Positions 6,641 to 11,300 of a stretch of DNA of 17,573 nucleotides are shown here, in pieces. Made by a program: the position numbers and the translations under genes. Each line of letters begins with the position of its first letter. Within the stretch, counting starts at the first letter, position 1. This DNA is from Victivallales bacterium (GTDB lineage Bacteria > Verrucomicrobiota > Lentisphaeria > Oligosphaerales > Oligosphaeraceae), in the NCBI GenBank assembly GCA_017964325.1, contig JAGCSE010000325.1:1-17573 (forward strand). Reading direction: 5' to 3'. Under the pieces are notes generated by a model. The model saw only the letters and a program-made list of their open reading frames with translations. It did not search any database and was not told where the DNA came from.

Positions 6641-6676
6641 CCAAGCCCCCGCAGATGACTATCGGCGGGGGCTTGG
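6641..6676. terminator. Perfect 12-bp GC-rich hairpin after the pseudopilin gene
   Basis: CCAAGCCCCCGC (6641-6652) pairs perfectly with GCGGGGGCTTGG (6665-6676) around a 12-nt loop. It lies 25 nt past the stop codon. No T run follows on the plus strand, so it may be an mRNA-stabilising 3' hairpin rather than a classic intrinsic terminator. Confidence 0.7.
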
Positions 6677-9888: not shown

Positions 9889-9915
9889 TTCAGTATCCTT
9901 TCAATCAACAATATT

Positions 9916-9963
9916 AAAAGGGGCTGTTGCGATACCATTTACGGTAAGCAACAGCCTTTTTTG
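9916..9963 (+). terminator. Intrinsic terminator after capG
   Basis: GGCTGTTGC (9922-9930) pairs perfectly with GCAACAGCC (9948-9956), an inner TACC/GGTA stem extends it, and AAAAGG upstream pairs with the following T run. Six T follow on the plus strand. The sequence AAAAGGGGCTGTTGC is nearly repeated at 11057-11071 on the far side of the KilA-N gene. Confidence 0.88.
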
Positions 9964-10216: not shown

Positions 10217-11047
10217 ATGGCTAAAATCATCGTTGAAGAAACACCAATCACTATTCTGCGTGTCCATGAAGAAGATTACATTTCATTGACAGACATTGCA
10301 CGAAAGAAATCCGACGATCCAACAGGAGTCATAGGACATTGGATGCGCAACCGCAATACGATAGAATACCTTGGCGTATGGGAAACACTGTATAATCCCG
10401 ATTTTAAACCCACCGAATTCGGTGGGTTTAAAATGGAAGCAGGCCTCAACGCCTTCACGCTTTCGCCACAAAAATGGGTCACAAGCACCAATGCCATTGG
10501 AATCGTCGTCAAATCAGGGCGTTACGGTGGAACATACGCTCACAAAGACATCGCATTCAAGTTTGCCAGTTGGATATCAGTTGAATTTGAGCTGTATTTG
10601 TACAAAGAGTTCCAGCGTCTAAAGGCTGAAGAACAGAAGCAATTGGGTTGGAGCGCCAAACGGGAACTGGCTAAACTGAACTACCGCATCCATACGGATG
10701 CCATCAAACAGAATCTTGTTCCGCCAACTTTGGATGCCAAGCATGCGGCGATCATCTACGCCAACGAAGCTGACGTCCTAAACGTAGCCATGTTCGGCAT
10801 GACTGCCAAAGAATGGCGAGAAGCCAATCCTGAGGCAAAAGGCAACATTCGCGACAACGCCTGCATCAACGAACTAATCTGCCTTTCCAATCTTGAAAGC
10901 CTGAACGCCATGTTCATCAATGATGGCATCCCGCAGCCTGAACGTCTCCAAAAGCTGAACCAAGTAGCCATATCCCAAATGCTTGTGCTCAATGACATGA
11001 CAAACCGCAATCTACTGACAGATGAAACATCACCATCATTTGAATGA
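10217..11047 (+). CDS. KilA-N domain protein
   Basis: The 276-residue protein carries a full KilA-N domain (about residues 13-137): YISLTDIARKKSDDPTGVIGHWMRNR, the NPDF element (60-63), FTLSPQKWVTSTNAIGI (80-96), KSGRYGGTYAHKDIAFKFAS (99-118) and the helix ending EFELYLYKEFQRLK. The domain is a DNA-binding module of phage and large-DNA-virus origin. The C-terminal part (150-265) is the helical region that usually accompanies bacterial KilA-N proteins; its function is unknown. The ATG has AAGGA 8 nt ahead. It is monocistronic with its own strong promoter, a leader hairpin and flanking terminator-like hairpins, which suggests an independently acquired cassette. Codons 62-73 (DFKPTEFGGFKM) are built on a perfect 34-bp palindrome. 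Role, for example a phage-derived regulator or defence-linked factor, is not known. Confidence 0.9.
   Translation: MAKIIVEETPITILRVHEEDYISLTDIARKKSDDPTGVIGHWMRNRNTIEYLGVWETLYNPDFKPTEFGGFKMEAGLNAFTLSPQKWVTSTNAIGIVVKSGRYGGTYAHKDIAFKFASWISVEFELYLYKEFQRLKAEEQKQLGWSAKRELAKLNYRIHTDAIKQNLVPPTLDAKHAAIIYANEADVLNVAMFGMTAKEWREANPEAKGNIRDNACINELICLSNLESLNAMFINDGIPQPERLQKLNQVAISQMLVLNDMTNRNLLTDETSPSFE
10401..10434. repeat. Perfect 34-bp palindrome inside the KilA-N coding sequence
   Basis: The left arm ATTTTAAACCCACCGAA (10401-10417) is the exact reverse complement of the right arm (10418-10434), with no loop and the centre in an EcoRI-like GAATTC. It encodes FKPTEFGGFK in frame, and the opposite strand encodes the same peptide in one of its frames. 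Other KilA-N proteins have a short variable loop at this place, after NPDF. Confidence 0.95.
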
Positions 11048-11056
11048 ATAATATCA

Positions 11057-11097
11057 AAAAGGGGCTATTGCCAAACCACCATGGCAAGCAATGCCCC
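11057..11097. terminator. Bidirectional terminator between KilA-N gene and the FGE-like gene
   Basis: GGGGC-T-ATTGC (11061-11071) pairs with GCAAT-GCCCC (11088-11097) with one bulged T; an alternative TTGCCA/TGGCAA stem is inside. On the minus strand the hairpin is followed by TTTTT, so it serves the converging minus-strand operon best; on the plus strand only AATTT follows. The remaining bases to 11300 hold no gene or clear signal. Confidence 0.72.
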
Positions 11098-11300
11098 AAT
11101 TTCTGCATCTTTCGCCCCTTCTTGCCTCATGGCCAACATTGACAAGAGAGGAGAGTTTTACAACTAACTTTAGCCGTTGTCATCCATCACCTTATGTCAA
11201 GCTTACAATACATCATGCCTATCTCATTTCAACAGAACCTTGTCATCCAAACGATTAACATGCCTTTTCATTGCCAGCCAAAAGAGGGAAAAAGACATCA

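Follow-up and report, generated by a model that had tools for sequence, protein, structure and literature searches.

How does a perfect 34-bp palindrome come to be spelled by the codons of a protein, and what keeps it there? The question is posed by a KilA-N gene in a 17,573-nucleotide stretch of a Victivallales genome (contig JAGCSE010000325.1; hereafter "the window", meaning the whole stretch analysed), in which positions 10401-10417 and 10418-10434 are exact reverse complements (17/17) without a spacer (Table 1). The initial annotation had described a loopless, in-frame palindrome with perfect 17-bp arms encoding FKPTEFGGFK, and had considered its origin by chance very unlikely. Both statements are borne out: all 17 pairs form, across residues 63-72, and none of 1000 synonymous recodings of these ten residues, drawn from the gene's own codon usage, reaches the palindrome's score (printed p 0.0). 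This is the sole 17/17 centre of the window, the next-best 34-bp centre (6658) having 14 paired positions and being unpaired at the centre itself. The palindrome is real and far beyond chance.

Table 1. Positions of the KilA-N gene, its palindrome and related features in the window
Feature	Position	Strand	Remarks
KilA-N gene, 276 aa	10217..11047	+	PHROG 2657 transcriptional regulator; PADLOC candidate PDC-S22
Helix 35-42 (PTGVIGHW), predicted	10319..10342	+	Proposed recognition helix, covarying with the arm at residues 36, 37, 40, 41
Perfect 34-bp palindrome	10401..10434		Centre between 10417/10418 (CGAATTCG); outer box, TTTAA/TTAAA, fixed; candidate binding site for the gene's own protein
Codons 63-72, FKPTEFGGFK	10403..10432	+	Spelled by the palindrome; the helix tracks the variable 30-mer bases 9-11 (here C, A, C)
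TGGCGAA	10133..10139	+	Start codon 84 bp downstream; resembles part of a TATGG-type half-site; may be chance

The encoded protein matches the KilA-N profile PF04383 (E 3.5e-22, 78.7 bits against a curated cut-off of 23.8) and, over its full length, the PADLOC profile PDC-S22 (E 2.8e-131, residues 3-268); NCBIfam gave no match to it. A search of solved structures by sequence returned a single match (E 0.3), which is not credible. The structural model predicts a helix at residues 35-42 and an N-terminal domain like those of Mbp1 and PCG2, and among the solved folds closest to it are the DNA-binding domain of Mbp1 and the DdrC dimer. Mbp1 and PCG2 (APSES/KilA-N) have related DNA-binding domains and are likened here by fold. 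DdrC of Deinococcus, solved as a dimer, is the best whole-length structural match, although at 10% identity and an rmsd of 8-9, and in the model it is the C-terminal half of our protein that resembles the DdrC dimer; we know of no sequence-specific palindrome for DdrC.

First, one may ask whether the palindrome is a recent arrival or a maintained part of the gene. We compared the best 80 loci of at least 571 relatives, most of them Bacteroidota and the rest Treponema, Lentisphaeria and a small number of others. The ten codons and the palindrome occur at the same place in 80 of the 81 loci matched (the window and 79 of the 80 relatives; L058 was missed), which contradicts the earlier proposal that ten codons had been inserted after NPDF. 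Read in codon register, these 80 sites have on average 13.6 of 15 possible pairs, against 8.6 when recoded synonymously by their own codon usage (highest mean of 1000 rounds, 9.0) and 7.3 at the next-best offset in the same 80 genes. Particular codons are held in this first set: leucine at codon 4 is always CTC (49/49), glycine at codon 8 always GGG (59/59), and the centre GAA-TTC is kept in 79 of 80 sites. The imperfect copies include ACC opposite GAG in 11 sites and AAC opposite TTT in 16. An enlarged set, to which phages, paralogues and more genomes were added, comprises 160 distinct genes with 73 decapeptides and 93 distinct 30-mers; in all 160 the palindrome lies at the same codons, with scores of 11-15 (mean 13.6, against 8.7 expected from synonymous codons). 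Changes in one arm are compensated in the other, as in CCC CTC..GAG GGG (PL..EG), CCT ATC..GAT AGG (PI..DR), CTG GTC..GAC CAG (LV..DQ), GTG GTC..GAC CAC (VV..DH), GGT GTC..GAC ACC (GV..DT) and TAT GGC..GCC ATA (YG..AI). Over pairs 6-12, 6.18 of 7 positions are paired, compared with 3.56 when the right halves are shuffled (maximum of 2000 shuffles, which ignore relatedness, 3.99). The initial annotation had envisaged relatives that fix the amino acids while synonymous changes break the palindrome; the opposite is seen, the codons being held and the amino acids changing pairwise so that the palindrome is kept. The palindrome is not a recent insertion and is maintained at the DNA level. Relative to KilA-N paralogues such as L104 and L111, the protein has about 30 additional residues, a stretch that includes the palindrome. 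As a separate observation, decayed or fragmentary KilA-N genes (L204, L213, L214) still carry a perfect or nearly perfect palindrome.

Second, is it the DNA or the transcript that is under selection? Complementary arms and compensating changes mark an RNA stem as well, and a hairpin in mRNA processing had been among the functions first suggested. Yet the mismatches outside the three outer pairs, counted over the 93 distinct sites, comprise 17 G-U, 27 A-C and 48 others; at pair 2, the 39 G-U combinations represent the Lys/Arg codon AAA/AGA and can be read either way. Because there is no G-U excess within the arms, selection does not seem to act on the sense RNA. A messenger RNA hairpin is on this account hardly probable, the more so as the GAATTC centre found in 79 of 80 sites would be needless for a loop and Rfam gives no match up to E 1. 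A DNA hairpin, for its part, may serve in DNA processing.

Third, the arms vary together with the predicted helix that lies upstream in the same protein. A contrast of close relatives having equal arms with those having different arms pointed to the columns just before W42, and the pattern became visible once the helix before W42 was tabulated by arm type. Across the 150 genes whose site was mapped, related genes being counted each time, D37 goes with G10 (28/28), I37 with A10 (15/15), Y37 with A10 (7/8), F37 with G10 (11/11) and A37 with C10 (53/66, the remaining 13 having the 3′ arm alone of the C type), whereas S, G, Q, V and T at residue 37 show no clear base. Similarly, F36 accompanies T9 (18/19), K or R at residue 40 accompanies GT (30/30), N41 accompanies T11 (112/121, the other nine being ACC/GAG hybrids), D41 accompanies G11 (7/7) and K41 accompanies C11 (10/10). 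H41 is likewise found with C11 in all three of its genes, namely in the window and L061 with ACC/GGT and in a third with ACT/AGT. On a tree of 150 tips, built with columns 30-80 left out, there are 72 arm changes; of the 49 branches with a change at residue 37, 32 also have one in the arm, against 18.1 expected (0 of 1000 draws). In this test, residue 37 ranks first of 215 columns, residue 86 second and residue 41 third; 84, 46 and 44 come high in the list as well, and columns 43-62, which lie nearer the palindrome, rank below 37 and 41. A protein 97% identical to that of the window (P0001) differs from it at nine residues, 37, 41, 43, 61, 66, 69, 74, 75 and 275, of which 61, 66, 69, 74 and 75 are in or beside the loop encoded by the palindrome.

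Could the protein, rather than the DNA, be the place where helix and palindrome meet? Since one side of every variable base pair alters an amino acid, contact between the helix and the palindrome-encoded loop could give part of the covariation, and residues 86 and 84 also rank high; gene conversion or exchange over one tract could likewise couple helix and site. A fuller alternative of this kind would leave the palindrome to mutation, with template switching at a quasi-palindrome copying one arm onto the other and the helix covarying through its contact with the loop. Correction of quasi-palindromes by template switching is known from bacteria, and with a single amino-acid-changing side per variable pair a protein contact can mimic the reading of DNA. 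The process would nevertheless have to contend with fixed boxes and a GAATTC centre that are held (79/80), with palindromes of the same boxes outside the gene, and with the hybrid sites. Where A37 stands with a base other than C at position 10, the opposite glutamate codon (codon 7) is GAG in 13 of 13 cases (7 distinct sites, partly of one clade), despite the 135 GAA and 59 GAG codons for glutamate elsewhere in those genes. The hybrid sites keep the synonymous base that fits A37, which counts against a pure helix-loop contact, and we regard template switching as an unlikely account of the palindrome. The KilA-N protein instead appears to read the palindrome of its own gene, and the option of a KilA-N binding site within its own gene, raised at the outset, gains support from the covariation of the predicted helix with the palindrome.

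A code was written down before two further phylum sets were searched, around the genomes of L040 (Eubacteriales) and L008 (Treponema), sets that may be near to the first or far from it. Matches were present in 36 of 398 and 39 of 247 genomes, respectively, and the 61 loci examined yielded 30 new genes, or 29 once L362 had been dropped. For these 29, the code called the left arm correctly from residues 37, 40 and 41 in 53 of 58 instances, compared with 25.2 in shuffles (maximum of 5000, 44); the five failures belong to L388 (two), L347 (two) and L389 (one). The right arm fitted in 46 of 59 calls, L362 counted. Restricted to the 17 distinct helix-site pairs with a previously unseen site, 24 of 29 left-arm calls were right against 13.3 in shuffles (fraction 0.0002). 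Residue 36 could be assessed in one new gene only.

From the computed palindrome, its conservation at the DNA level and the covariation of helix and site with its prospective test, we infer, with a probability of roughly 0.6, that the palindrome is a site bound by the gene's own KilA-N protein as a dimer, most likely for autoregulation. Two copies of the protein would sit on the DNA, one per mirror half; the fixed boxes TTTAA and CGAATTCG would be recognised by constant residues, the variable bases 9-11 by residues 36, 37, 40 and 41 of helix 35-42. A change in the helix would then go with a matching change of the site within the same gene. Since a dimer would present the same reading helix to both halves, these would have to be alike, and the DNA would stay palindromic while the amino acids that it spells change pairwise. 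Autoregulation would be the most likely use of a self-recognised site: with the site some 200 bp into the gene, the simplest effect of a bound protein would be to impede transcription of that gene. There are precedents for the parts of this arrangement. The lac operator O2 lies inside the lacZ coding sequence, is palindromic and is bound by a dimeric regulator, and the KilA-N site would be akin to it in these respects, but it falls within the codons of the regulator's own DNA-binding domain and covaries with the putative reading helix. A parS palindrome lies inside the spo0J/parB gene and is bound by ParB. The likeness, a palindromic site within the gene of its (here proposed) binding protein, goes together with a difference: parS is a fixed 16-bp site, whereas the KilA-N arms vary widely and the presumed reader varies along with them. 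Intragenic operators of the lac O2 kind have a main operator near the promoter. Here an upstream copy, at most 120 bp from the start, is present in 13 of 81 loci, while the 78 downstream control stretches have none, which favours the binding reading; in the other 68 loci, the window included, no upstream copy was scored, which speaks against it, as do the residues at 37 that have no clear base and the failed calls of the code. The window's TGGCGAA is not among the top-scoring upstream copies, and no full palindrome exists at its position.

Fourth, copies outside the gene bear on the idea, also put forward in the initial annotation, of a mobile in-frame palindrome resembling the Rickettsia palindromic elements. 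These elements likewise place a palindrome in frame within a gene, with related copies elsewhere. The KilA-N palindrome differs in occupying the same codons in all collected relatives, in having few copies per genome and in spanning only 26-34 bp. An empty place in homologues, as would be expected of such an element, is not what was seen (80 of the 81 loci matched and all 160 genes have the palindrome at these codons), and the relatives searched do not have many dispersed copies. A strict pattern occurs at 12 places in the genomes of 14 relatives (0-2 per genome), ten inside KilA-N matches and two just upstream of one, and among 148 genomes of the Bacteroidota group (G001 included) five have a single place, in every case within a KilA-N gene or a fragment of one. 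A dispersed repeat of the host genomes was accordingly rejected for the relatives searched, whose few copies are all in or beside KilA-N genes or fragments. Several of the upstream copies have an arm type different from that of the gene's own site, which counts against the binding reading, and some are arrays of mixed arm types; in L034 and L079 they are read in frame as the C-terminal end of a MutS_V-domain gene. Comparable in-frame C-terminal extensions of the upstream gene, made of palindromes of several arm types, are seen in L026, L046, L055, L056 and L071.

In viral contigs, at least 80 stretches carry the pattern with centre CGAATTCG, as opposed to 6 for one control centre, CGATATCG; of the 80 listed, 17 are in KilA-N frames and 63 are mostly between called open reading frames, with a reading frame ending 13 nt from the centre in 9 of the 63. 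The extragenic copies are less symmetric than those in the gene, since 45 of the 63 have unlike halves; they represent 54 distinct contexts, 15 of them equal-halved. Protein families shared near these sites group no more than 7 loci each, with many of the loci from related phages, and no common regulator was seen among them. Some copies have the appearance of short insertions: phage DW2 has 30 bp at the stop codon of its dUTPase gene that phages 8490 and 3A are without, streptococcal phages show a similar presence or absence of the palindrome ahead of the scaffold or terminase gene, and the intergenic copy of L157 has no counterpart at that place in L159 and L122. Phage Javan117 has a copy that matches, without a difference over 35 nt, the KilA-N palindrome found in five streptococcal satellite phages. 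A mobile element carried in frame by the KilA-N gene would account for palindromes of the same build outside the gene, for the empty sites in relatives and for the in-frame runs into the MutS_V-domain gene. It is nonetheless disfavoured, and very unlikely, given the same codons throughout the 160 KilA-N genes and the small number of copies in the host genomes searched, none of which lies apart from KilA-N genes or fragments. The mobile-palindrome idea is not supported for the window copy, whose relatives have it at the same codons, and retains some force for the phage copies. The palindrome insertions at gene ends in staphylococcal and streptococcal phages, with empty sites in relatives, are those at L217 2001 and L216 2001. 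Two extragenic copies on a Pontibacter plasmid (L203, 6013 and 9174) share a left flank with a second inverted repeat, GTACGCA..TGCGTAC, and repeats resembling it occur near copies in L042 and L055. By eye, the extragenic palindromes at L209 4013 and L177 near 7392 adjoin the end of an apparent tRNA gene.

If the binding is real, need its purpose be autoregulation? By analogy with parS in spo0J and ParB, the gene might mark itself, or rivals of the same allele, for exclusion, or the site might seed a complex that coats the DNA. The protein's standing as PADLOC defence candidate PDC-S22 would be in keeping with such a purpose, and so would its gene's position between the HsdM and HsdS genes in L019 (in L042 it adjoins the HsdS gene), its presence in satellite phages (in Javan581 it is next to the integrase gene and two genes from the repressor gene), the matching palindromes in phages and the modelled likeness of the C-terminal half to the DdrC dimer. 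Twenty-six plasmid records carry the gene as well. PDC-S22 is only a candidate, PDC systems being counted as unvalidated in PMC12813430, according to which it co-occurs with other candidates in S. suis. Against the exclusion or coating reading stands the scarcity of KilA-N genes in the viral records searched, which may be fragments: one record in 50 has such a gene (46 of the 50 carry an extragenic site and 4 come from the control pattern). We consider this reading possible but doubtful. A similarly tentative extension would treat KilA-N/PDC-S22 genes as self-contained recognition modules, in which helix and site, within about 120 bp, are exchanged together, so that exclusion or defence would be homotypic, each allele recognising only elements with that same allele. 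Any phage or host operon with a captured site would then become a target, or a sponge, of the protein.

The best-supported reading of the sequences is a self-recognised intragenic site that coevolves with its reader, and the palindrome's importance is greater than was first stated. The literature searched yielded no description of the DNA sites of this KilA-N subfamily or of such a self-recognised palindrome. If the binding is true, one gene would report both a protein and the DNA that it reads, natural protein-site pairs could be read from genomes, and the at least 8000 relatives of this widespread gene in the protein search could furnish a recognition code for the KilA-N subfamily, testable in that reading amino acids and site change together. 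A solitary gene would be seen to carry its regulation along to each new location, and experiments could directly address both what a defence candidate does and what the matching phage sites are for.

Finally, some features of the window deserve mention in their own right. The centre at 6658 belongs to a GC-rich intergenic inverted repeat, terminator-like and paired at 14 of 17 positions. Between 5001 and 7000, GC skew flips from about +0.2 to about -0.2 and persists despite later strand changes of the genes, perhaps as a replication signal. Similar terminator-like hairpins flank the KilA-N gene on both sides, at 9907-9962 (AATATTAAAAGGGGCTGTTGC..) and 11045-11102 (AATATCAAAAAGGGGCTATTGCC..); they could be ordinary terminators or the ends of a moving unit.
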